A stretch of DNA of 37,459 nucleotides from Nitrosopumilaceae archaeon (GTDB taxonomy: Archaea > Thermoproteota > Nitrososphaeria > Nitrososphaerales > Nitrosopumilaceae). Shown here piece after piece: positions 12 through 26,021 of the stretch. Made by a program: the position numbers and the translations under genes. Numbering within the stretch: the first letter of the stretch is position 1; every line of letters begins with the position of its first letter. The notes beneath the pieces are model-generated. The model saw only the letters and a program-made list of their open reading frames with translations, was not told the origin of the DNA and did no database searches. The stretch is from NCBI GenBank assembly GCA_900620265.3, contig UYNY03000025.1, positions 1 through 37,459 of the forward strand, read 5' to 3'.

Positions 12-2048
12 ATGGATCTGCCCGAGGCCCTGCCTTTTGCGGCCGGCATAGCATCGTTTCTGGTCGCGGCCGGCATGGCCGCCTGGATATCGAGGCAGCC
101 TGCCGGCACCCCCCAGATGGCCGAGATATCAGAGGCCGTCCGCGTCGGGGCCGCCGCGTTCCTGAGGCGCGAGATGAAGATAATCGTGCCGGTGGCCGCC
201 GTCCTCTCGGCGGTCATCGCCGTCCTGCTCCAGCCCTCGAACGGGATAGCGTTCGCGGTCGGCGCCGCCCTCTCTGCGGTCGCCGGCATCATCTCGCTAA
301 AGATAACGGTAAAGGCGGCGGTCCGGGCTGCCAACATGAGCAGCAGCGGCCTCGGCAGGACGTTTGCAGTCGCGTTCCGCGGCGGTGCGACGGTCGGCCT
401 GGCCGTCCCCGCCATGGCACTGCTTGCCATAACCGGGCTGTACCTCGTGTACCAGGACCCGATAGCGGTCGCCGGCGTCGGGATCGGCGCCAGCCTGATA
501 GCCCTGTTCATCAGGATCGGCGGCGGCATATTCACAAAGGCCGCAGACATGGGCGCCGACCTTGTCGGCAAGGTCGAGGCCAACATACCGGAGGACGACC
601 CGCGCAACCCGGCCACCATCGCCGACAACGTGGGGGACAACGTGGGGGACGCGGCCGGCATGGGGTCGGACGTCTACGAGTCGTACATCGTCACCATACT
701 GGCCTCGCTGCTCATAGCTGCCCTCATCGGGGCCCCCGAGCTCTTCCTCTACCCGATACTGGTCGGCTCCGCCGGCATGATAGCCTCGATAGCCGGCGTG
801 GCGATAGTCAGGTCCGGCAACATCACGGATGTGATGCGGCCGCTTGACATATCGTTCTACGTCTCGGCCGCCATCGCGATCGCGCTCAACTATGTCTTCC
901 TGTCCTACGTGGCCGGCCCGTCGCCGGCCTCGCTGGCCCTCTTTGGCACCACCGTGATAGGCGTGGCGCTCGTCCCCGTGATCCAAAAGATAACCGACCA
1001 GTACACGAGCTACAAAAAGGGCCCCGTCTCTGAGATCGCCGCGTCCGCAAAGTGGGGGTACGCCTCGCTCACCCTGATGGGGATCATAAAGGGCATGCAG
1101 TCGACCGGCCCGTTCATGATCGCCATAGTGGCTGCCATCATCGCCTCGTACGTGCTGGCCTCCTCGGCGGCCCCGGAGGGCGCCGACCCCGTCCTGTACG
1201 GGATATTCGGCACGTCGCTCACCGCGATGGCGATGCTGAGCCTGGCCGGGATCGTCCTTAGCATCGACGCGTTCGGCCCCATCGCAGACAACGCCGGCGG
1301 GATAGTCGAGATGACCGGCATGGGGGAGGAGAACCGCAAGGTGACCGACGAGATAGACGCCGTCGGCAACACGACAAAGGCAGTCACAAAGGGGTTCGCC
1401 ATAGCAAGCGCGGCGCTCGCGGCCCTTGCCATGATCCAGGCGTTCCAGTTCGAGGCCTCGCACGTCTTTGGCGGCGTGGACCTTGACTACGGGCTCACCA
1501 ACCCCGCCATCATCGTGGGGCTGCTCGTCGGCGGGCTCGTCCCGTTCATCATCACCGGCCAGCTGATAAACGGCGTCTCGCGCGCGGCGGGGCGCATGGT
1601 CGACGAGGTGCGCCGCCAGTTCAAGTCGGATCCGGGGATCCTTGATGGCAGCTCAAAGCCCGACTATGCAAGGTGCGTCGACATCGCGACGGCCGCCTCG
1701 ATACGCGAGCTCTGGAAGCCGGCCGCCGTCGCCATCGCCGCCCCCATAGTCCTCGGCGTCCTGCTCGGGCCGTCGGCCGTCGCCGGCCTGCTGATGGGGT
1801 CCGTCGTGACGGGGATCCTGCTGGCGTACCACCTTGCCAACACCGGCGGCGCGTGGGACAACGCCAAAAAGCTCGTCGAGATGAGGGGCGAAAAGGGCAC
1901 CGAGGAGCACAAGGTGGCGGTCGTCGGGGATATAATCGGGGACCCCTACAAGGACACGGCGGGCCCGGCGCTCAACACGGTGATAAAGCTACTCAACACG
2001 ATAGCAATCGTCTTTGTCTCCTCGTTCGTGGCGGTCCTGTCCATCTAG
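12..2048 (+). CDS. hppA: Membrane-bound proton-translocating pyrophosphatase
   Basis: This 678-residue polytopic membrane protein hydrolyses pyrophosphate and uses the energy to pump protons out of the cell, recovering energy from biosynthetic PPi. The length and the many hydrophobic segments fit the family. The substrate and Mg-binding acidic motifs are present: DMGADLVGKVE near residue 179, DNVGDNVGD about 30 residues later, and GDIIGDPYKDTAGP near the C-terminus. The motif GNTTKA has lysine at residue 456; in this family a lysine there marks the K+-independent subclass (established knowledge), so this is probably a K+-independent H+ pump. The ATG lies 12 bases into the window, so its promoter is not visible. 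The stop TAG is shared through CTAG with the convergent gene at 2045-2215. Confidence 0.97.
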   Translation: MDLPEALPFAAGIASFLVAAGMAAWISRQPAGTPQMAEISEAVRVGAAAFLRREMKIIVPVAAVLSAVIAVLLQPSNGIAFAVGAALSAVAGIISLKITVKAAVRAANMSSSGLGRTFAVAFRGGATVGLAVPAMALLAITGLYLVYQDPIAVAGVGIGASLIALFIRIGGGIFTKAADMGADLVGKVEANIPEDDPRNPATIADNVGDNVGDAAGMGSDVYESYIVTILASLLIAALIGAPELFLYPILVGSAGMIASIAGVAIVRSGNITDVMRPLDISFYVSAAIAIALNYVFLSYVAGPSPASLALFGTTVIGVALVPVIQKITDQYTSYKKGPVSEIAASAKWGYASLTLMGIIKGMQSTGPFMIAIVAAIIASYVLASSAAPEGADPVLYGIFGTSLTAMAMLSLAGIVLSIDAFGPIADNAGGIVEMTGMGEENRKVTDEIDAVGNTTKAVTKGFAIASAALAALAMIQAFQFEASHVFGGVDLDYGLTNPAIIVGLLVGGLVPFIITGQLINGVSRAAGRMVDEVRRQFKSDPGILDGSSKPDYARCVDIATAASIRELWKPAAVAIAAPIVLGVLLGPSAVAGLLMGSVVTGILLAYHLANTGGAWDNAKKLVEMRGEKGTEEHKVAVVGDIIGDPYKDTAGPALNTVIKLLNTIAIVFVSSFVAVLSI

Positions 2049-2215
2049 GACTGCTTGTCCAGCTCGTCTATCCTGGCCCGTATGTCCGCCTCCAGCGTGG
2101 GGCGGTGCTTTTGGCAGAACCCAAAGTACCCGTCCACCGTCTGGATGCATCCGCACATCCACCTGGTCTCTACGTCTCCCTCGACGGTCCAGCGGGCGTA
2201 CCTGCTCCCTGCCAT
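2045..2215 (-). CDS. Small Cys-rich conserved protein (56 aa), unknown function
   Basis: I do not recognise a named family. The 56-residue product has a CGC motif, then a CQKH motif about 11 residues later, which could bind a metal, and an acidic helical C-terminus (EADIRARIDELDKQ). The frame stays open further upstream to 2425, but that extension runs through the neighbouring gene. The internal ATG at 2213-2215 is preferred because a TATA-like ATTTAAAG at 2239-2246 lies about 28 nt upstream, the leaderless spacing seen across this window. Its stop overlaps that of hppA by four bases. Confidence 0.7.
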   Translation of the reverse strand: MAGSRYARWTVEGDVETRWMCGCIQTVDGYFGFCQKHRPTLEADIRARIDELDKQS

Positions 2216-2254
2216 GCCCGGGCGACGGCGCGCGGCGTGATTTAAAGCATTCAT

Positions 2255-2261
2255 AAAAAAA
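2255..2261 (-). terminator. Oligo-T terminator after the DUF2024 gene
   Basis: Read on the minus strand this is a run of seven T about 20 nt after the stop codon of the DUF2024 gene at 2281-2538. Archaeal RNA polymerase commonly terminates at such T tracts without a hairpin. It lies just upstream of the TATA box of the next minus-strand gene. Confidence 0.55.
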
Positions 2262-2280
2262 TGGGGGGATGGGGGCGTGC

Positions 2281-2538
2281 CTAGTTGCAGCCTTCCATCT
2301 TTTGGATGTAATAGCCCTTTTCGGTGATCTCCTTCTCGACGTGCTCGGGGGCCCCCTGGGAGTGGCAAAAGCTGCACTCCTTTGAGGTCATCTCCGCCCC
2401 GGCCTCGCCTACGGAGGCGAGCCACTCCTTGCCATACGCTATGGCCTTGTCGTGGTCCTTTACGCCGGTGATCACGTCAAAGTGCATCGTGCGGCCGTCA
2501 GAGGCCTTTACGTACGTGTCGTAGACGTGTACTTCCAT
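2281..2538 (-). CDS. DUF2024 family protein
   Basis: The 85-residue product begins with MEVHVYDTYVKA and continues with TMHFDV and an AIAYGKEWL helix, then a CSFCHSQ motif; this pattern matches the DUF2024 family of small proteins whose function is unknown. The CxxCH-like motif might bind metal, which is inference. The ATG at 2536-2538 has a TATA-like TATTTAA at 2561-2567, about 26 nt upstream, so the transcript is probably leaderless and monocistronic. A T7 tract follows the gene. Confidence 0.85.
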   Translation of the reverse strand: MEVHVYDTYVKASDGRTMHFDVITGVKDHDKAIAYGKEWLASVGEAGAEMTSKECSFCHSQGAPEHVEKEITEKGYYIQKMEGCN

Positions 2539-2648
2539 GCGGGGCCCCCGCGCGAGGGGCTATTTAACTCAAAACGCCCCGCGGGGGGGCCGGCACGCGC
2601 CCCCCGCGTCCTAAATCTGCCTTGCTCCCCCTCCCGGATCCGGGGCCC

Positions 2649-3035
2649 CTACGTCCTGCGTATGCCGACCTCCCTCACGCCGCCGGCTGCCTCGTAGGCG
2701 GCAAACGCCCCGTCGACCCCCGAGTAGATGACCCAGGGGACGGCGTTTGCGGCCATGTACCTCTCGTCGGTCGCGGACGGGCGCGCGGCCGAGGCCGGGT
2801 GCGAGTGGAATATCCCGACGACCTCCTCGCCGCGCCCCTCGGCCGCCCCGTATATCTCAAGCAGCCTCTCAGGCCGTATCGAAAAGCTGGCCCCCGACGC
2901 GTCGGCGTTCTCTGCAAGCTCTGCCCGCGCGACCCGCCTGCCCCTCCCGAGCAGCACGGCGCACGCCTCGTGGGGGCTCGACCTCCTGGCGTGCGCCTCT
3001 AGCTCCCCAAGCACGGCGCCCGGTATCTCGATCAT
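2649..3035 (-). CDS. JAB1/MPN/Mov34 (JAMM) metalloprotease domain protein
   Basis: A single-domain JAMM protein of 128 residues. The zinc-site signature HxHx7SxxD is complete: H77, H79, S87 and D90 in the segment HSHPASAARPSATD, with the upstream glutamate E23 in PHEACAVLLG as the likely catalytic acid. Archaeal JAMM enzymes remove ubiquitin-like modifiers from proteins or release sulfur-carrier proteins; which applies here cannot be told. The ATG at 3033-3035 shares one base with the TGA of the cupredoxin gene upstream (TGATG), so translation is probably coupled. A 12-residue longer frame exists but would sit inside the upstream gene. Confidence 0.88.
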   Translation of the reverse strand: MIEIPGAVLGELEAHARRSSPHEACAVLLGRGRRVARAELAENADASGASFSIRPERLLEIYGAAEGRGEEVVGIFHSHPASAARPSATDERYMAANAVPWVIYSGVDGAFAAYEAAGGVREVGIRRT

Positions 3036-4132
3036 CAAGGCGCAGTTACTGTGACGGTCCCTATCATCCACGGGTGCAGCGTGCAGATGTACTCGTACGT
3101 GCCCGGCTCCTCGAACACCTGCTCGAACGTCCCGCCGGCGCTGATGATCCCAGAGTCAAACGGGCCGCCGACGGTCCCGGCGACCGTCCCGTCGGTGGTC
3201 CCCGACGCCGTGTGCAGCGTGGGATCCTCGTTCTCCCATAGCACCTTTCCGCCGGCCGGTATCGACACCTCGGCCGGCTCATAGTACACCTGCCCCTCCG
3301 ATACCGTGGCCGCCCCCTCCGGTATGACCACCACCGCGTCGGGGCCGGCGGGATCGGTGATCTCAAGCGTGCTTGTCATCCACGGGTGCACGATGCAGAT
3401 ATAGTCGTACGTCCCCGCCTCGAGCGCCGACGTGTCAAGCACGTACGTGTCGCCGGTCGCCACAAGCCCCGTGTCAAACGTCTCGCCGAGGTCCGCCGAA
3501 CTGGTGGCAGTATGCGCTACAATGTCGGCGTTGAACCATCCTAGCAGCTGCCCCCGCTCGACCGTGATGCCGTCCGGATCATAGTCGGGCGCCCCGTCCA
3601 CGTCCGACCCCTCGAGCATCGTCACCACGACGTCAGGCTCCAGCACCGGCTCCTCCTCGACGGGCGCCGCCTGGGGCACCATGTACGTGTCGGGACTGAC
3701 GAACCCGAACGCCACCCACATTATTATCCCGGTGGCCGCCGCCATGGCCGTTATCGACCCGATCGGCTTTACCACCTTTGGATGCTTCATCGCAAGGTAT
3801 GCTATGATGATCGCCGGGAAGGCTATCCCCATCAGGACGCCTGCCAGCGTCAGGGTGTAGCTTGACGACCCGTACGAGAGGGCGAACGCCCCGAACCCCA
3901 GCGCTATGGAGAGGATGACGAGGGTGGTCGCCTTTGCCCGGTTGCTGGTCGAGATCCCCCCGTCCAGTATGCCGGCTGCCAGGAAGATCAGCCCCACGAA
4001 CATCGTGAGCCCCGAGAGGGCGTGCATGCCGTCTATGAACGTGTGGGCGATCTCGGCGTAGGAGAGGACCACGCCGGCAAGCCCGATCGACGTGAGTCCC
4101 ATCCCGGGCATCATGAGGTCCCAGTTGCTCAT
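3035..4132 (-). CDS. Membrane protein with two cupredoxin (plastocyanin-like) domains
   Basis: The first roughly 150 of 365 residues form several transmembrane helices (for example GLTMFVGLIFLAAGIL and AGVLMGIAFPAIIIAYLAM). Two cupredoxin domains follow, each with a type-1 copper site: an upstream histidine (VAHTATS; LHTASGT) and a C-x2-H-x2-M loop (CIVHPWM; CTLHPWM). Such copper proteins are abundant in ammonia-oxidising archaea and are thought to replace cytochrome c as electron carriers outside the membrane. A GTG at 4147 would add five residues, but the TATA-like element at 4154-4164 is centred 27 nt before the ATG at 4130-4132 and only 12 nt before the GTG, so the ATG is preferred. The JAMM gene follows with a one-base overlap. 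Confidence 0.92.
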   Translation of the reverse strand: MSNWDLMMPGMGLTSIGLAGVVLSYAEIAHTFIDGMHALSGLTMFVGLIFLAAGILDGGISTSNRAKATTLVILSIALGFGAFALSYGSSSYTLTLAGVLMGIAFPAIIIAYLAMKHPKVVKPIGSITAMAAATGIIMWVAFGFVSPDTYMVPQAAPVEEEPVLEPDVVVTMLEGSDVDGAPDYDPDGITVERGQLLGWFNADIVAHTATSSADLGETFDTGLVATGDTYVLDTSALEAGTYDYICIVHPWMTSTLEITDPAGPDAVVVIPEGAATVSEGQVYYEPAEVSIPAGGKVLWENEDPTLHTASGTTDGTVAGTVGGPFDSGIISAGGTFEQVFEEPGTYEYICTLHPWMIGTVTVTAP

Positions 4133-4232
4133 CTGCCCCGCCCGCACGCACCGATATACTTATTCCTTTTGAAGGGCGGCGCAGGGTGCCGCGCCCGGAC
4201 GAAGGGATTAAAAGGCTGCGCGGGGGGCCCCG

Positions 4233-5120
4233 GTGGGGTTGGGGTTACGAGAGATATCCGAGGTCTCAAAGCCCCGGATCGTGGTGCTGCTGGTGATAAC
4301 CGCCGTGGCCTCGATGTACGCGGCGGGCCAGATCTCAGGCGATCCGCCCGGGGCGTGGGCCTACCTCCACATCGTGGTGGCCGGGGCCGCGGCATCGGCC
4401 GGATCGAGCGCCCTGAACCACTATTACGACCGGGACATCGACCCCCGCATGTCCCGGACCCGCTCCCGGCCCATCCCGTCGGGCCGGATGCCGGCCCGGC
4501 ACGCCCTCGTCTACGGGGTCTCGGTCAGCTGCGCCTCGGTCGTCTACGGGTACTTTTTACTCAACCCCGCCTCGGCCCTCTTTATCGCGGCCGGCATCTT
4601 CTCGTACGTGGTCATCTACACGGCCTGGCTCAAGCGCCTCAACACGTCGAACATCGTGATAGGCGGGATCGCCGGCAGCGCGGCCGCCTGGGCCGGGTGG
4701 GCCGGGGCCACCGGCACGCTCGACCTGCTGGGGTTCCTCGTCGGGTTCTTGGTGTTCGTCTGGACGCCGTCGCACTTTTGGTGCCTTGCAATGAAGATGC
4801 GCGACGAGTACGCGCAGGCCGGCGTCCCCATGCTGCCCGTCGTCGTCGGCATGCAAAAGACCTCAAAGTACATACTCGTCAACACCGCCATACTGCTGCC
4901 GTACTCGCTGGCGCTGCTGCTGGTGCCCGGCGGCCTCGGCGCAGCGTATGCTGCGATAGCGGCCGCCTCCGGCGGGCTGATGCTGGTCTACCACTACCGC
5001 CTCTTGAGGACCCCGACGCCAGAGTTCGCGTGGAAGGCGTACAAGGTGACGGCGCCATACCTTACGGTGATATTCGCGGCCGTCGCCATCGACGCGGCGC
5101 TCGGCGCCCCGCTGGCCTAG
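4233..5120 (+). CDS. ctaB: Protoheme IX farnesyltransferase (heme O synthase)
   Basis: This UbiA-superfamily prenyltransferase attaches a farnesyl group to heme b, giving heme O for the terminal heme-copper oxidase. The 295-residue protein is polytopic, and the prenyl-diphosphate motif is visible as NHYYDRDIDPRMSRTRSRP, with a second conserved region around TPSHFWCLAMKMRDEY, both characteristic of CtaB/CyoE. The start is a GTG at 4233; a TATA-like ATTAAAA at 4207-4213 is about 23 nt upstream. It is divergent from the cupredoxin gene, and both serve the respiratory chain. The stop TAG shares CTAG with the convergent gene at 5117-5395. Confidence 0.95.
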   Translation: MGLGLREISEVSKPRIVVLLVITAVASMYAAGQISGDPPGAWAYLHIVVAGAAASAGSSALNHYYDRDIDPRMSRTRSRPIPSGRMPARHALVYGVSVSCASVVYGYFLLNPASALFIAAGIFSYVVIYTAWLKRLNTSNIVIGGIAGSAAAWAGWAGATGTLDLLGFLVGFLVFVWTPSHFWCLAMKMRDEYAQAGVPMLPVVVGMQKTSKYILVNTAILLPYSLALLLVPGGLGAAYAAIAAASGGLMLVYHYRLLRTPTPEFAWKAYKVTAPYLTVIFAAVAIDAALGAPLA

Positions 5121-5395: not shown

Positions 5396-7548
5396 CCGTA
5401 GAACGCCTCGCTCCTCGGGATCGCGTTAGATATACCTTCCCGCACCGACGAGTACCACCTGTCCACCTCCCTCGTTATGGAGGGCCTGACGCGGCCCAGG
5501 GCCCCGTCAAAGTCGGCGCTCGACACCATGGCCGACCCGCGCCCGATGGCCCCGACGGCCGCCTCCCTGCAGAGGGCCGCAAGGTCGGCCCCCGTGTAGT
5601 TCTTGGTGGCCACGGCTATCTCCCGCAGGTCGACGTCCTCAAGCGGCATGCCCCCTGCCAGTATCCGGATTATCTCCAGCCTGCCCTGCTCGTCGGGCGG
5701 CTCTGCATAGACGGCAAGGTCCAGCCTGCCGGTCCTCAGCAGCGAGCCGTCAAGCATGTCCGGCCTGCTGGTCACCCCCACGACGGCGACGCCGGCCGGC
5801 GCCCCCTCGATCTCGGTGAGCAGCTGGCTGAGCACCGACTCGGCGGCCCCCCCCTCGCCGGTCCTCCCCCTTGCAAGCGAGTCGACCTCGTCAAGTATCA
5901 CGACGCACGGGGCTGACGACTTTGCCTTTTTGAAGATCTCGCGCACGGCCTTCTCCGACTCGCCGGTCCACCTGCTGAACACCTCGGGGCCGCGCACCAG
6001 TATCATGTTGGCGCCCGTCTCGGCCGCCAGCGCCCTTGCAAGCAGCGTCTTGCCGCAGCCGGGCGGCCCGTAGATGAGCGCCCCGCCTGGCGCCCTGACC
6101 CCCATCCTCGAGAACCTGTCGGGGTCGGAGACGGCGGCGGCCAGGTTGTCTGAGAGCGTCTTCTTTGCTCCCGCCAGCCCCCCCACGTCCTTCCACATCA
6201 CGCGCGGCCTCTCGACGTAGAACTCGCGCATGGCCGTCGGGACGATGACGCGCATGGCCTCGTAAAAGTCGACGGCCTTTATCTCCATGGACTGGAGCAC
6301 CCCCGACGGGATCCTCTCCGTCTCGAGGTCTATCTCCGGCAGGTACCTGCGTATCGCCTTGAGGGCCGCCTCCCTGCACAGCGACTTTATGTCGGCGCCC
6401 GTGTAGCCGTGCAGCTCGGCGGCAAGCTCCTGCAGGTCGACCGAGGAGGCCACCGGCATCCCCCTGGCGTGTATCTGGAGTATCTCGAGGCGCCCGTCGG
6501 CGTTGGGGACCGATATCTCAAACTCGCGGTCGAACCTGCCCGGCCTCCGCAGCGCCGGATCCACCCCCTCGGGCCTGTTGGTGGCGCCCAGCACCACCAC
6601 GCCGCCCCGGTCGTCGAGGCCGTCCATGAGGGCCAGCAGCTGCGCCACCACCCTCTTCTCGACCTCGCCGTACGCATCACCCCTCCGCGGCGCTATGGCG
6701 TCCATCTCGTCTATGAATATGATGCTCGGCGCGTGCTCCCTTGCCTCCTTGAAGATCTCCCTCATCCGGGCCTCGGACTCGCCATAGTACTTGTTCATTA
6801 TCTCGGGGCCGTTGACCAGGAAGATCCGCGCCTCTGACTCGCTGGCAAGCACCCTTGCAAGCAGCGTCTTGCCGCAGCCGGGCGGGCCGTACAGCAGTAT
6901 CCCGCCGTGCGGCTCGATTCCGAGCCTCTGGAAGAGCTCGGGGTGCCGCAGCGGGAGCTCGACGACCTCGCGCATGGCGCCCACCTCCTTTGCGAGCCCG
7001 CCGACCTCCTCGTAGGTGGCCCGCGGCCTGCCCGGCCCGCCGCCGCCCTCCGTTATGGCCACCTGCGTGGACCTCTCGATGCGGACGGCGCCGGCCGGCG
7101 AGACCTTTGAGACGACAAAGTCCATCGGCCTTGCAAGGATGGTCACCGATATCTCGTCCCCCTGGACGAGCGGGAGCCCCCTGAGGCGCCCCTTTACGAA
7201 CTCTGTGAACTCGTTGTCGGTGTGCGCCGGCCCGCCCGACGGCGCCAGGGAGACGGACCTTGCCGGCCTCGCCTGCACGCGCCTTGCGCGCACGACGTCG
7301 CCGAGCTGCGCCCCGGCGTTCTTGCGCGTCTGCCCGTCGATGCGGACGACGTCCTGGTGCTTTTCGTCCTCGTCGGCCGGCCAGAGCACGGCGCAGCTGG
7401 TGCCCGATCCCGATATCTCGACGATGTCGCCGGGGGACGCCTTTAGCGCGTCCATTATCCCCGGCCCCACGCGCGCCCTCTTCTTGCCGACGTCGCGCTG
7501 CTTTGCCTCGCCGACGCGCACCTGGAGCGCCCCGATCCCGCGGGCCAT
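5392..7548 (-). CDS. cdc48: Cdc48/VAT-type AAA+ ATPase
   Basis: A 718-residue unfoldase with the full Cdc48 architecture. It has an N-terminal substrate-binding domain (about 1-165), a D1 AAA domain with Walker A GPPGCGKT at 221-228 and Walker B IIFIDE at 276-281, and a D2 domain with Walker A at about 494-501 and Walker B VVILDE. The arginine-finger segment in D1 is RRPGRFDRE; in D2 it reads LLRTGRLD, where threonine replaces the usual proline but both arginines remain. The last three residues, F-Y-G, fit the hydrophobic-Tyr-X motif used by archaeal Cdc48 to dock on the 20S proteasome (established for other archaea; inferred here). It follows the EF-1 beta gene by 1 nt. Confidence 0.96.
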   Translation of the reverse strand: MARGIGALQVRVGEAKQRDVGKKRARVGPGIMDALKASPGDIVEISGSGTSCAVLWPADEDEKHQDVVRIDGQTRKNAGAQLGDVVRARRVQARPARSVSLAPSGGPAHTDNEFTEFVKGRLRGLPLVQGDEISVTILARPMDFVVSKVSPAGAVRIERSTQVAITEGGGGPGRPRATYEEVGGLAKEVGAMREVVELPLRHPELFQRLGIEPHGGILLYGPPGCGKTLLARVLASESEARIFLVNGPEIMNKYYGESEARMREIFKEAREHAPSIIFIDEMDAIAPRRGDAYGEVEKRVVAQLLALMDGLDDRGGVVVLGATNRPEGVDPALRRPGRFDREFEISVPNADGRLEILQIHARGMPVASSVDLQELAAELHGYTGADIKSLCREAALKAIRRYLPEIDLETERIPSGVLQSMEIKAVDFYEAMRVIVPTAMREFYVERPRVMWKDVGGLAGAKKTLSDNLAAAVSDPDRFSRMGVRAPGGALIYGPPGCGKTLLARALAAETGANMILVRGPEVFSRWTGESEKAVREIFKKAKSSAPCVVILDEVDSLARGRTGEGGAAESVLSQLLTEIEGAPAGVAVVGVTSRPDMLDGSLLRTGRLDLAVYAEPPDEQGRLEIIRILAGGMPLEDVDLREIAVATKNYTGADLAALCREAAVGAIGRGSAMVSSADFDGALGRVRPSITREVDRWYSSVREGISNAIPRSEAFYG

Positions 7549-8046: not shown

Positions 8047-9174
8047 CTTGCCGAGCAGCCGCCTCGCCTGCCCGGCGGCGATCCCGCCGGCCGCCTCGAG
8101 CAGGCCCCCCGCCCCGAGCAGCCCCGCTATGGCCCCGGCGTGAAAGTCAAAGTCCGAGCCGGCCGAGATCGAGGCGGCCGCCTCCGGGGTCACCCTGCGC
8201 AGCAGCCTCTCGATGGCGCCGTTCCCGAGGCGCTCGAGCGCCGCCCTTGCAAGCGACTGGCGGCGGAACTCGGGGCCGAACCTTGACATCCAGGCCCCCC
8301 GGTACCCGTCGAGCGCCCCGGCCTCGCCTGCCAGGCTGGCGGCGGCGGCCCGGCCCGCCATGATCCCGCCCATCCCGCTCGTGAAAATGCCGCCGGCCGT
8401 CGTCGGCTTTGCCTGGCCGGCGGCGTCGCCGGCCACCAGGATGCCGTCCCGGGTGAACGACCCTATGGGGCCGCCGACCCAGATGGGCGCGTGTATCTTT
8501 CTTGTGACCGCGCCGCCCCTCTCTCTTATTATCCGGTCGACGGCGGCCGCGGCCCCGCCGCCCCTGCGCGCGGCGCCCACCCTGCCGCGCCCCGCCCCCT
8601 CCGGTATCACCCACGCAAAGAACCCCGGGTACCTCTCCTGATCCAGCATGACGCGCACCTGGCCGCGCCGTATCCAGGGGGCCGCCACCTCGTACTGGGA
8701 GGACGGGATGACCTGCGACCTGTCCCTTGATGCCAGGGTGCCGGCGCCGCGCGCGTCGACTGCCACCCTGCACGGTACCTCTGACGTCCTCGTGGATATG
8801 GACGAGCCCGTGATCCTCGTCACGGTGCTGCCCACCTCTATCTCTGCGCCCGCGCGCGCGGCCTGCCTTGCCACCTGCTTGTCAAGCTGCCGCCTGTCCA
8901 CCTGGGCGACCCGCTGCCTCTGCGCGTCAAGCTCCACCTCCCGCCCCGACGGCGACTCGATGACGGCCGACGTTGCGTGCCCCCGGAGTATGTCGGGCGA
9001 CGGGATGATCCCGAGCTCCGAGAGCCCGGCCAGGCTGACAAGGCCGCCGCAGTGCTCGGGCGTCCCCACCTCCATGTCCTCCTCGAGCACCGCCACCGAG
9101 AGGCCGGCGCGCGCAGCCTCGCGCGCGCACAGCAGCCCCGCTATGCTGCCGCCGGCGACCGCCACGTCGTACAC
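8041..9174 (-). CDS. Geranylgeranyl reductase family flavoprotein
   Basis: A 377-residue FAD enzyme of the geranylgeranyl reductase family, which saturates double bonds of the isoprenoid chains of archaeal membrane lipids. The N-terminal dinucleotide fold is visible as VAVAGGSIAGLLCAREAA with a glutamate at the end of the second strand (AVLEED), and the second FAD motif as GDAAGQAKPTTAGGI. The GG of AGGSIAG departs slightly from the textbook GxGxxG. The start is a GTG at 9172-9174, supported by the shared TATA box at 9198-9204, which is 27 nt away. The family also contains enzymes acting on quinone side chains, so the exact substrate is not certain. Confidence 0.9.
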   Translation of the reverse strand: MYDVAVAGGSIAGLLCAREAARAGLSVAVLEEDMEVGTPEHCGGLVSLAGLSELGIIPSPDILRGHATSAVIESPSGREVELDAQRQRVAQVDRRQLDKQVARQAARAGAEIEVGSTVTRITGSSISTRTSEVPCRVAVDARGAGTLASRDRSQVIPSSQYEVAAPWIRRGQVRVMLDQERYPGFFAWVIPEGAGRGRVGAARRGGGAAAAVDRIIRERGGAVTRKIHAPIWVGGPIGSFTRDGILVAGDAAGQAKPTTAGGIFTSGMGGIMAGRAAAASLAGEAGALDGYRGAWMSRFGPEFRRQSLARAALERLGNGAIERLLRRVTPEAAASISAGSDFDFHAGAIAGLLGAGGLLEAAGGIAAGQARRLLGKL

Positions 9175-9197
9175 GGGGCCGGGAGGGGCGCGATTGC

Positions 9198-9204
9198 TTT
9201 AAAA
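9198..9204. promoter_or_regulatory. Single symmetric TATA box shared by two divergent genes
   Basis: TTTAAAA lies within GCTTTAAAAGC, which reads almost the same on both strands. It is centred at 9201, 26 nt before the ATG of pth2 (9227) and 27 nt before the GTG of the reductase gene (9174). No other TATA-like element lies in the 52 bases between the two starts, so one element probably drives leaderless transcription both ways. Confidence 0.6.
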
Positions 9205-9226
9205 GCCTTGATCGGGGGCGCCGCCC

Positions 9227-9577
9227 ATGGAGGTAAAGCAGGTCATCGCGGTGCGGACCGACCTCGGGATGGGCCGCGGCAAGCTGGCCGCCCAGGTGGG
9301 CCACGCGTGCGTCATGGGGGCGGAACGGGTCCGGCTCTCAAGGCCCGAGTGGTACGAGGGGTGGCAGGGGCTGCAGATGAAGGTGGTCGTCCGGGTGGAC
9401 GGGATGGACGGCATCGACGACGTGCGCCGCCGGGCCGCCGACGCGAACCTGCCCTGGTCGCAGGTCGCCGACGCCGGCAGGACCCAGCTCGAGCCGGGGA
9501 CGGTGACCTGCATATCCGTGGGGCCTGCCCCCTCGGATCTCGTCGACGGGGTGACGGGGGATCTGCGGCTGCTCTGA
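9227..9577 (+). CDS. pth2: Peptidyl-tRNA hydrolase, archaeal/eukaryotic type
   Basis: The 116-residue protein cleaves peptidyl-tRNA released from stalled ribosomes so that the tRNA can be reused. Family signatures are present: KQVIAVRTDLGMGRGKLAAQVGHA at the start, and DAGRTQLEPGTVTCISVGPAP in the second half, which carries the conserved Pth2 active-site residues. The ATG is set by the shared TATA box 26 nt upstream. A separate promoter with a short leader follows for the next gene. Confidence 0.95.
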   Translation: MEVKQVIAVRTDLGMGRGKLAAQVGHACVMGAERVRLSRPEWYEGWQGLQMKVVVRVDGMDGIDDVRRRAADANLPWSQVADAGRTQLEPGTVTCISVGPAPSDLVDGVTGDLRLL

Positions 9578-9622
9578 TAAAGATATAACGAGGCGCGCCG
9601 GGCCGCGGCCCGTGGTGATACC

Positions 9623-11236
9623 ATGAGGAAGGACCGCCCAAAGCGCAAGGGCCCGTTCATGAAAAAGCAGACAAAGGGGATAGTGATGTTCGCCTTCCTC
9701 GGCGGGATAATGGCCACCTCGGGGGTCGTCATCGGCATACCGGGGACGCAGCCGGAGCAGGGCCCCATGCAGGCCTCGGCCGACCCGTCCGAGTACTATC
9801 CCGTCGAGGAGCGGCCACGCTTCTGCGGGACCGACGAGGCATCGTCCACGCCGTACGTCACAGAGTACGAGATCCCGACCCCGTGCACCAACCCCGTCGG
9901 GATAGCAGTCGACGGGGACGGCGCCGTCTGGTTCGCACAGGCCAACACCGGCTCGCTCGGCAGGTTCGACCCGTCCAACGGGACGTTCACGCAGCTGACC
10001 AACCCGAGCTGGCAGGCCGGATCCGCCACCAACTCGATGATGTGGGGCGCCGCGGCGGCCCCCGACGGGTCCGTCTGGTATACCGAGGACAGGTTCAACT
10101 CGATATGGCGGTACTCTGCCTCTGACGACCAGTACACGAGGTTCGCGCTTGCAAACCCGGGGCAGAACCTGCTGCCGCAAAAGATCGCCTTTGCCGGATC
10201 GCAGATAATAGTGAACGACTTTCTGAGGGAGCTGCCCGCAGGCGACACGTCCGCGAGGAGCGGCCTCATACTCTTTGACCCCGCGCAGGACCCGCTGTCA
10301 GTCTCGTACGTGACGGTCCCCCCGCCCAACTCGTTCGGGCTCACCTCGGGGTTTGCCATCGACGGGAGCCTCATCTGGTATACGAACTGGGACGGCGTCT
10401 CGCCGGGGTTCCTGGTGCGGTTTGACAGGGACGCGTACGAGTCGGCCGGCGCGGCGGCCGGCGAGACGGTCGACACCGTCAGGTTCACGTCAAGCTACAA
10501 CCTGCCGGACGGCCTGCTAAACCCCAACGGGATAACGCAGGCGGCAGGGCGCCTCTGGATGGCCGATACGGCCTCGTCGTACTTTTTCAGCTTTGACCCC
10601 GTGACGGAGCAGTTCACGAGGTACGTGACGTCGGTGCCGAGGCCTGACGCGTACGGCAACCACACCGGGGTCGTGCTGGACCCGCAGAGCAGGCCCTACT
10701 GGATGGTCTCAGACGGGCAGGACAGGGTCGCCTTCAACGAGCAGACGGGCAACGCCATCGGGCTCTTTGATCCGGCCACGGAGGCGCTCGTCGAGTACAG
10801 GGTGCCCTCCTCGAACCCGTTCTGGTCGGACTGCGAGCCGGCCACCGGGCTCCCCATAGAGGACTGCGGGCTGGCCCAGGTGCTCGACATCGCCGCCGAC
10901 GGGGACCGCATATGGTTCACGGAGTGGGTCGAGAACGCACTCGGGATGGTTGACACGTCGGCGCCCCTCCCGTTCGGGATATCGCTTGACGCGTCGTCGG
11001 TGGAGGCCGTACCGGGCGGGTCGGCGTCGGTATCGTATGCGGTCCCGCCGTCTGCAGAGCCGGTCGCCTCCTCGGCGCACGAGGGGATAGGGGTGGCGCT
11101 GGGGATGGAGGGCGGCGCCGCGCGGGCGTCGGTCACGGTGGGGCCCGGCGTGCAGCCGGGCGAGTACAAGGTGCTGCTTGGCGCGCGCGACGCCGATGTC
11201 ACCATATCGCGATACCTGACAGTGGTAGTGCGGTGA
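9623..11236 (+). CDS. Secreted beta-propeller protein (Vgb/SMP-30-like)
   Basis: A 537-residue exported protein. A basic N-terminus and hydrophobic stretch (about residues 18-39) form a signal peptide or anchor. The body repeats a blade motif of the type DGxxWFxxxxxxxxGRFD: AVDGDGAVWFAQ, PDGSVWYTED, GRLWMADT, DGDRIWFTEW and others, as in streptogramin-lyase-like and SMP-30-like propellers. The last 100 residues resemble an immunoglobulin-like strand region. The real function is unknown; a cell-surface role is likely. A TATA-like GATATAAC at 9582-9589 would give a short leader, and GGTGAT at 9614-9619 matches the 16S anti-Shine-Dalgarno three nt before the ATG, unlike the leaderless genes nearby. 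A second ATG at 9659 is possible. truD follows with a GTGA overlap. Confidence 0.8.
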   Translation: MRKDRPKRKGPFMKKQTKGIVMFAFLGGIMATSGVVIGIPGTQPEQGPMQASADPSEYYPVEERPRFCGTDEASSTPYVTEYEIPTPCTNPVGIAVDGDGAVWFAQANTGSLGRFDPSNGTFTQLTNPSWQAGSATNSMMWGAAAAPDGSVWYTEDRFNSIWRYSASDDQYTRFALANPGQNLLPQKIAFAGSQIIVNDFLRELPAGDTSARSGLILFDPAQDPLSVSYVTVPPPNSFGLTSGFAIDGSLIWYTNWDGVSPGFLVRFDRDAYESAGAAAGETVDTVRFTSSYNLPDGLLNPNGITQAAGRLWMADTASSYFFSFDPVTEQFTRYVTSVPRPDAYGNHTGVVLDPQSRPYWMVSDGQDRVAFNEQTGNAIGLFDPATEALVEYRVPSSNPFWSDCEPATGLPIEDCGLAQVLDIAADGDRIWFTEWVENALGMVDTSAPLPFGISLDASSVEAVPGGSASVSYAVPPSAEPVASSAHEGIGVALGMEGGAARASVTVGPGVQPGEYKVLLGARDADVTISRYLTVVVR

Positions 11237-24448: not shown

Positions 24449-24457
24449 TTTAAATAT
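24449..24457 (+). promoter_or_regulatory. TATA box of the toxin-antitoxin pair
   Basis: TTTAAATAT, centred 27 nt before the ATG at 24480. The 20 bases between it and the start codon are entirely filled by the palindrome described next. Confidence 0.6.
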
Positions 24458-24459
24458 GA

Positions 24460-24479
24460 GGCCCCGGTTCACCGGGGCC
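24460..24479. promoter_or_regulatory. Perfect inverted repeat between TATA box and start codon: probable operator
   Basis: GGCCCCGGT-TC-ACCGGGGCC has two perfectly complementary 9-bp arms and a 2-nt centre. It ends at the base before the ATG of the antitoxin-like gene. Binding of a dimeric protein here would cover the transcription start, the normal way antitoxins repress their own operon. A transcript starting upstream would instead fold into a hairpin hiding the start codon. Confidence 0.55.
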
Positions 24480-24656
24480 ATGGAGGAAGGGAAGAAGCAC
24501 AAGGGTTGGACCGACGGAATCGGCTGGACCGCCGAGGAACTGGTCTGGACCGAGGCTGACACCGAGTGGATGAAGGCGGCAAAGGCTAGGTCCAAGTCGA
24601 GCCGGCCCGTAACGGCCGCCGAGCTGAGGGCCTTACACGAGTCCCTGAAGTACTGA
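24480..24656 (+). CDS. Putative antitoxin (58 aa)
   Basis: A small charged protein: MEEGKKHKGWTDGIGW, a helix around TAEELVWTEADTEWMKAAKAR, and a C-terminal helix RPVTAAELRALHESLKY. It resembles small RelB-type antitoxins in size and in its position directly upstream of, and overlapping (TGATG), a RelE-sized gene. No DNA-binding fold is obvious, so repression through the palindrome is inference. The longer frame from 24387 starts before the TATA box and is rejected. Confidence 0.6.
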   Translation: MEEGKKHKGWTDGIGWTAEELVWTEADTEWMKAAKARSKSSRPVTAAELRALHESLKY

Positions 24657-24916
24657 TGAAGGTAACTTGCTCAGTCGAGTTTGATTCAAAATTCGAATCT
24701 GAATGGCACACCCGGCGGGCCATCGTCCTTCCACTAATAGATAGGATAGAGGAGGCTGAGTCGCTTGCAGACTTGGGGGATATCCTCACGTGCGAGGCCG
24801 GGGCCGACTATTGCGTATACAACAGGATATGCAAGCTGTACTTTGCCTATGATACCAAGAACAACGCGGCCGAGTTAATGGGATACGCCTTTAGGACGTT
24901 CTCAGAGGATGTTTAG
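24656..24916 (+). CDS. Putative RelE-like toxin (86 aa)
   Basis: The ATG shares one base with the antitoxin stop. The order of elements fits the RelE/ParE fold: strand TCSVEFDSKFE, helices RRAIVLPLIDRIEEAESLADL, then a strand-turn series YCVYNRICKLYFAYDTKNNAAELMGYAF. RelE family members cut mRNA on the ribosome. Similarity is at the level of length and secondary-structure pattern only, so the family assignment is tentative. Codon use is less GC-rich than in core genes, as in other acquired modules here. Confidence 0.55.
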   Translation: MKVTCSVEFDSKFESEWHTRRAIVLPLIDRIEEAESLADLGDILTCEAGADYCVYNRICKLYFAYDTKNNAAELMGYAFRTFSEDV

Positions 24917-25156: not shown

Positions 25157-25437
25157 CTAGCCCGGGATATTTTTCATGATTTTCCTGCATTTCTCCCCGC
25201 TTATGCCGTTTTTCTCCCTCAGGAGCCTCATCAGGCGGGCTGTACTAATAACATCAAAACCCCGTGATTTGGCGTATTTGGCAGCGTGATTTTCGTCTAT
25301 TACACAGTGAACTTGCATACCGGCATGGTTGTACCTGTACGCCATCAACACACCTTCCTATCAATTAATCCCGGAAACATTGGTTCCTCAAATATGGGAA
25401 TTATTACATACGAGTCCAGTATGACGACTTTTGTTAC
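25157..25437 (-). pseudogene. Degenerate PIN-domain toxin
   Basis: Two pieces in different frames can be seen. The first begins at about 25437 as VTKVVILDSYVIIPIFEEP, the typical first strand of a PIN nuclease with its catalytic aspartate, and ends in TGA at 25345-25347. The second (GTG at 25349-25351) carries VHCVIDENHAAKYAKSRGFDVISTA and ends with a charged helix, typical of the PIN C-terminal half. Together they give about 90 residues, where a PIN toxin has 130-150, so a middle part is lost as well as the frame; no normal start codon precedes the first piece. The intact antitoxin-like gene overlaps its 5' end. Confidence 0.55.
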
Positions 25438-26021
25438 ACGGCCACCCTTAACATTTTCCGCATTTCACTGTACGGGATTTCAAGCAATTCTGCCCCGCGC
25501 TGCGATGTTATCTTTTCCTTTTGCACCAGTTTTATTACGTGCTCGGGCAACCTGGGTCTTATTTGATTCTTGTATTTTTCAGAGTTGACGGCCATCTCGG
25601 GGTACATGGAGTCTATATAGGCCAGTAATTCGTCATGGGTCATGCCGTCAAATAATTCATTATATTCGGAAAGCAGGCCTGCAACGTTACCGTCAATTTT
25701 ATCAGCAAATTGATCAAACAGCCCGTTTCCGTATTTTGTAAGACGCATGTATCTATAAGAACCAGATCCGGCATCTGCTTCTATTACGCCCTCGTCTTGC
25801 AGAGTCTTCAAAGTCAACTCCAATACCCGGCTGTACGGGCCGTAGATATCTGGCTCATAATCAAAACGTGACTCAAAACCCGGCACGTCCCTTGATAGTA
25901 AAAAGAACGTCTTGTGGAGCCTGGTCTTGCCGATCGGCTCTTTGTTCTGACCCATCAAGACTACAACATACATCCCTATCTCACTCAGCGGACCCGCGCC
26001 AGGCTTTGGATCCTCTGCCAT
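25434..26021 (-). CDS. Antitoxin-like protein: YwgA/Panacea-like N-terminus plus UPF0175-like C-terminus
   Basis: A 195-residue protein. Residues 15-100 match the YwgA-like pattern related to Panacea domains: GKTRLHKTFFLLSRDV, then DYEPDIYGPYSRVLELTLKTL, GVIEAD and YRYMRLTKYGNGL. The last 40 residues, HVIKLVQKEKITSQRGAELLEIPYSEMRKML, have the pattern of UPF0175 antitoxins, whose usual partner is a PIN toxin. That fits the broken PIN gene directly downstream. The combination is unusual in my experience. The ATG at 26019-26021 is placed by the TATA box at 26042-26051. AT-rich codon use indicates acquisition. Confidence 0.65.
   Translation of the reverse strand: MAEDPKPGAGPLSEIGMYVVVLMGQNKEPIGKTRLHKTFFLLSRDVPGFESRFDYEPDIYGPYSRVLELTLKTLQDEGVIEADAGSGSYRYMRLTKYGNGLFDQFADKIDGNVAGLLSEYNELFDGMTHDELLAYIDSMYPEMAVNSEKYKNQIRPRLPEHVIKLVQKEKITSQRGAELLEIPYSEMRKMLRVAV

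Follow-up and report, generated by a model that had tools for sequence, protein, structure and literature searches.

A toxin-antitoxin-like gene pair of Nitrosopumilaceae with an inverted repeat between its TATA box and start codon

Overview

We describe two small overlapping genes behind a compact archaeal promoter on a 37,459-nucleotide stretch of DNA from a Nitrosopumilaceae archaeon (contig UYNY03000025.1, here called the window). The pair recurs in several genomes and is conserved at the protein level. It probably represents a type II toxin-antitoxin-like operon with a leaderless mRNA, in which an antitoxin would neutralize a putative RelE/ParE-like toxin by means of its helices. Comparative anatomy supports the toxin-antitoxin reading, and a RelE-type fold of the second protein is plausible. 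An inverted repeat occupies the space between promoter and start codon (Table 1); it is most likely due to chance or peculiar to this locus, as opposed to being an operator of the family.

The genome comprises 2.0 Mb in 113 contigs, and the best relatives of a 665 amino acid protein encoded near the pair place it in the Nitrosopumilaceae. The sampled part contains ~836 kb of non-N sequence with a GC content of 64.8%, similar to the 66.2% of the sponge symbiont Candidatus Cenporiarchaeum stylissum (PMC6697440).

Table 1. Features of the locus, in window coordinates
Feature	Position	Strand	Basis and remarks
Archaeal TATA box, TTTAAATA	24449..24456	+	Sequence; distance to the ATG within the genome-wide TATA-start peak
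Inverted repeat, GGCCCCGGT-TC-ACCGGGGCC	24460..24479 (arms 24460-24468 and 24471-24479)	.	9-bp arms, 2-nt spacer; putative function
Antitoxin-like gene, 58 amino acids	24480..24656	+	11 copies in the genome; dN/dS; model; core motif WTxxDT...(P)TxxE
Toxin-like gene, 86 amino acids	24656..24916	+	5 copies in the genome; homologues in G072, G310, and G010; conserved C46 and C59

A recurrent gene pair

The preliminary description of this DNA reported two small genes with a one-base overlap in antitoxin-toxin order, and both points are borne out. The two ORFs share a single base at 24656 (TGATGA), and paralogues as well as other Nitrosopumilaceae have the same order, overlap, and co-occurrence. 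We compared eight pairs, from contigs C25 (the window), C67, C90, and C23 of the same genome and from three other Nitrosopumilaceae genomes (G072, G310, and G010). The antitoxin-like gene comes first in every one, with an overlap of 1-32 nt, and the genes have the arrangement of type II modules: small, co-directional, overlapping or adjacent, and inherited together. The pairs of G310 and G010 stand apart as a subgroup in which the antitoxin N-terminus is shorter.

There are ten further copies of the antitoxin-like ORF in the genome and four of the toxin-like ORF (one on C67, two on C90, and one on C23). Only the toxins of the window and C67 are intact; C90:11014 is frameshifted, C90:11567 is broken, and the C23 copy has an in-frame stop, as does a second copy in G072. 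Several antitoxin copies are solitary, with no toxin gene behind them. Solitary antitoxins and broken toxins are what one would expect if a toxin can be lost and an antitoxin is tolerated. Since some toxin copies are pseudogenes, present activity is uncertain. Comparisons within the genome gave dN/dS values of 0.20-0.43 (toxin ORF) and 0.19-0.62 (antitoxin ORF, six closest paralogues), which is how genuine, moderately constrained proteins behave.

Evenly drawn searches of ~400 genomes of the phylum recovered no member of the family beyond this genome (G000) and G010. Homologues were not found in viral contigs scanned with the antitoxin and toxin-group alignments, in genome contigs scanned with the antitoxin, or in plasmids and phages searched with the toxin by tblastn. 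The pair looks like a rare, undescribed, lineage-restricted toxin-antitoxin-like family.

A somewhat unlikely alternative is that the genes are some other small accessory pair, for example, a mobile-element remnant. Copies are concentrated on contigs C90 and C67, the former also bearing an IS-type transposase and small genes in repeated copies, and none of the known toxin families matched at cut-off, all of which would suit such a remnant. However, the gene order, overlap, sizes, solitary and broken copies, and RelE-like signal (below) are what type II modules typically show, and we favor the toxin-antitoxin reading.

Other genes near the copies

Contig C90 (L019, G000:C90) has an antitoxin-like copy (3019-3180) that begins within the last codons of a 179 amino acid ORF (2483-3180 for the two); this ORF appears PIN/zinc-ribbon-like by eye and adjoins the IS-type transposase (3572-4663). 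At 8749-10603 of the same contig there is a 322 amino acid ORF, ADP-ribosyltransferase-like by eye, followed by 371-bp tandem partial copies. These carry 37-39 amino acid ORFs of the type MIVAKRKFDKDEEMAIRNLMKICGYNRELAIHRLERGMQ, a small ORF that is also present on C67. The 322 amino acid ORF and the repeated MIVAKRKFDKDEEMAIRNLMKICGYNRELAIHRLERGMQ-type ORFs may form a second toxin-antitoxin family whose antitoxin copies have been amplified. Contig C67 (L020, G000:C67) is small and has three antitoxin copies, a Fic/Doc-like ORF with an HPFIDGNKRTA motif (4406-4741), and a gene for a 1248 amino acid protein with a P-loop-like motif (583-4329).

Within the window, a minus-strand gene (25434-26021) encodes a 195 amino acid protein that resembles part of DarG and PADLOC PDC-M19A. 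The drop in GC content to 0.47 in this gene suggests acquired DNA. It is followed on the same strand by a gene, broken into two frames, that by eye looks PIN-type (25157-25440).

The toxin-like protein

The preliminary description expected a RelE/ParE-type fold for the 86 amino acid protein, and this is plausible. No curated RelE/ParE profile (PF05016 or other RelE-type) matched it or any member of its alignment, and a PF05016 search of its own genome was negative. Searches of the pair against Pfam, NCBIfam, PADLOC, and PDB sequences gave nothing significant; the NCBIfam, PHROGs, PADLOC, and PDB hits were weak or irrelevant, and the lowest E-value for the toxin was 8e-4, to phrog_14105, a family of unknown function. 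R20, V24, C46, C59, and F63 are kept across the toxin homologues. The C-terminus reads GYAFRTF, EYSFKIT, KFVFSVR, or DIEFV in the family, and in PF05016 toxins of the same archaeal family (Nitrosopumilaceae) it is mostly HRxxxY. The basic catalytic residues expected of RelE, including the C-terminal HR...Y, were not found in the toxin family, and with the HR...Y segment missing a RelE-kind ribonuclease activity should not be assumed.

A weak likeness was seen between profiles. The toxin-family profile scored 20.8-24.7 against 14 Nitrosopumilaceae ParE/RelE toxins (PF05016), with an hhalign probability of only 14-39%. Three versions of the alignment were each compared with 200 column shuffles and with a reversed control; the score exceeded the best shuffle in all three versions and the reversed control was at background. 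For the A13 profile, the two sides of the match run co-linearly through residues 5-76.

A single-sequence AlphaFold2 model of the toxin, of low confidence (mean pLDDT 49), has a strand, a helix, a short helix, and then strands, an order that would fit the beta-alpha-alpha-beta-beta-beta arrangement of the RelE/ParE superfamily. A Foldseek search of 350,542 PDB chains placed Thermus thermophilus RelE (2khe) first and a chain of a YoeB complex (7v6w) second. Both matches span nearly the full length of the model, with non-significant E-values of 3.4 and 3.6.

The profiles and the model together make a very divergent RelE/ParE-like fold the most likely one for this protein, as a best guess. Like RelBE/ParDE systems (PF05016 ParE_toxin), the pair has a putative toxin of ~85 amino acids preceded by a smaller overlapping gene, and the predicted secondary structure order, the weak co-linear profile match, and the two best, non-significant Foldseek matches would be in keeping with such a kinship. 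Unlike those systems, the toxin has neither the PF05016 match nor the C-terminal HR...Y; C46 and C59 are strongly conserved, and its first helix has conserved arginines.

The antitoxin-like protein

W23, D27, and T28, within the WTxxDT motif, are kept across the antitoxin homologues. In the single-sequence model the first 24 residues are disordered and helices are predicted at 25-37 and 46-57. Neither the domain searches nor the model revealed a recognized DNA-binding domain in the 58 amino acid protein. A DNA-binding domain that represses the antitoxin's own operon is usual, but not universal, among type II antitoxins.

The aRelB-aRelE pair of Pyrococcus horikoshii is also archaeal, and its antitoxin, too, lacks a clear DNA-binding domain (PMC4803016). 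It differs in that aRelB is described as having a potential leucine zipper with N-terminal basic residues (PMC4803016), which was not identified in the window antitoxin, and in that the window toxin matched no RelE chain in the PDB sequence search.

The 86 amino acid protein may be a growth-inhibiting toxin with a RelE/ParE-like fold, which the 58 amino acid protein would bind and neutralize through its two C-terminal helices. The gene overlap (TGATGA here, 1-32 nt in relatives) may couple translation of the toxin to that of the antitoxin.

Promoter and start codon

Among ORFs of at least 90 amino acids in the sampled genome DNA, the distance from a TATA-like hexamer to the start codon has a sharp peak at 23-24 nt. 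By the same measure the distance is 24-25 nt for the window pair. The genome-wide peak indicates that leaderless transcripts are apparently the rule, and the window promoter fits this pattern. The leaderless start proposed for the 58 amino acid gene is consistent with this spacing, and the operon would be transcribed as a leaderless mRNA. The ATG begins at 24480, the first base 3′ of the inverted repeat. Another in-frame ATG, at 24456, was rejected as the start; this position holds no ATG in the closest paralogue, and the alignment of starts favors 24480. No Rfam family matched at the locus.

The inverted repeat

The repeat was first described as a perfect 20-bp palindrome. Sequence inspection and a repeat search place it as claimed, with its last base directly before the ATG. 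The central TC is not self-complementary, which makes the element a 9+2+9 inverted repeat instead of a perfect palindrome. Its exact sequence occurs once in the genome, and as single-stranded DNA it folds well (-11 kcal/mol, z -4.2). We rejected its interpretation as an intrinsic terminator of minus-strand transcripts because the tail TCATATTTAA is merely the TATA region; a minus-strand scan found 1 such pattern versus 0.4 expected.

A repeat with 9-bp arms has p ~0.002 in its own 23-nt spacer by dinucleotide shuffles. The genome is 65% GC, and chance would put 0.39 repeats with arms of at least 9 bp into the 216 TATA-start spacers that were sampled; 2 were seen. As a class, the spacers have no dyad excess versus dinucleotide shuffles. 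The repeat is unusual locally and barely so genome-wide. The second long-arm repeat is a perfect 20-bp palindrome, GCGGCGCGGGCCCGCGCCGC, with 10-bp arms (L160, G000:C14:20001-40000, at 6974-6993). It lies between the TATA box and the GTG start of a minus-strand gene, the same position as the window repeat. The gene behind it is an apparent DNA polymerase D small subunit, assigned from its sequence without a database search.

We think it rather likely that the window repeat arose by chance, in a GC-rich genome where the spacers of leaderless promoters are very short and themselves rich in GC. The expectation from the sampled spacers corresponds to the order of one such repeat per whole genome, the spacers as a group match their shuffles, and a longer perfect palindrome holds the same position before the putative polymerase gene. 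On the other hand, the odds in this spacer are roughly 1 in 500, and the repeat stands before a putative toxin-antitoxin operon, the kind of place where one would look for an operator.

The preliminary description suggested from the layout that the palindrome serves tight autoregulation as an operator, and named its absence from close homologues as the finding that would refute this. By that test the operator reading fails, since the palindrome is not conserved in the paralogues. In the closest one (74% identical antitoxin), the DNA from TATA to ATG aligns ungapped with the window and the spacer length is kept, yet 4 of the 9 dyad pairs are broken, 1 has a two-sided change, and 4 are unchanged. 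The nine other family spacers in the genome, pooled, have no dyad excess, whether compared with dinucleotide shuffles (p 0.18) or with GC-matched background spacers (p 0.21). Several paralogue spacers contain private weak dyads (CCCGC-CAC-GCGGG, TCCCGCGGGA, and GCGGGGG-7-CCCCCGC), so locus-specific operators are possible and a shared family operator is unsupported.

It is improbable, in our assessment, that the repeat is a true operator to which the antitoxin or the complex binds to repress its own operon, with paralogue operators that differ and do not cross-talk. Such an operator would account for a repeat that fills exactly the promoter-start spacer and for the weaker, different dyads of some paralogues, and promoter palindromes are the usual targets of type II antitoxins (PMC4803016). 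Against it stand the broken in-register dyad of the closest paralogue, the nine spacers without excess, and the absence of a recognized DNA-binding domain; moreover, the antitoxin N-terminal half is nearly identical among close paralogues, yet their dyads differ. YoeB, which came second among the Foldseek matches of the toxin model, belongs to the YefM-YoeB system, for which palindromic promoter operators are the paradigm; the YefM palindromes are described as conserved upstream of homologues in several bacteria (PMC4803016), unlike the repeat here.

We consider very improbable the full combination of a new Nitrosopumilaceae-restricted module family, a RelE-like toxin that is catalytically rewired (two conserved cysteines and no HR...Y), an antitoxin without a known DNA-binding fold, and private dyad operators that single copies evolve between the TATA box and the leaderless start. 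If the toxin-antitoxin-like pair is autoregulated, the window dyad is not the conserved operator, and unless binding can be demonstrated the repeat should be regarded as accidental or as specific to this locus.

Implications

Where an archaeal genome is GC-rich and its leaderless promoters are short, chance alone yields GC palindromes in the TATA-start spacers about as often as they were observed here, which calls for caution in their interpretation. The pair adds what looks like an undescribed, lineage-restricted toxin-antitoxin-like family to the ammonia-oxidizing archaea, and this family explains several small ORFs in the genome, some of them decayed.
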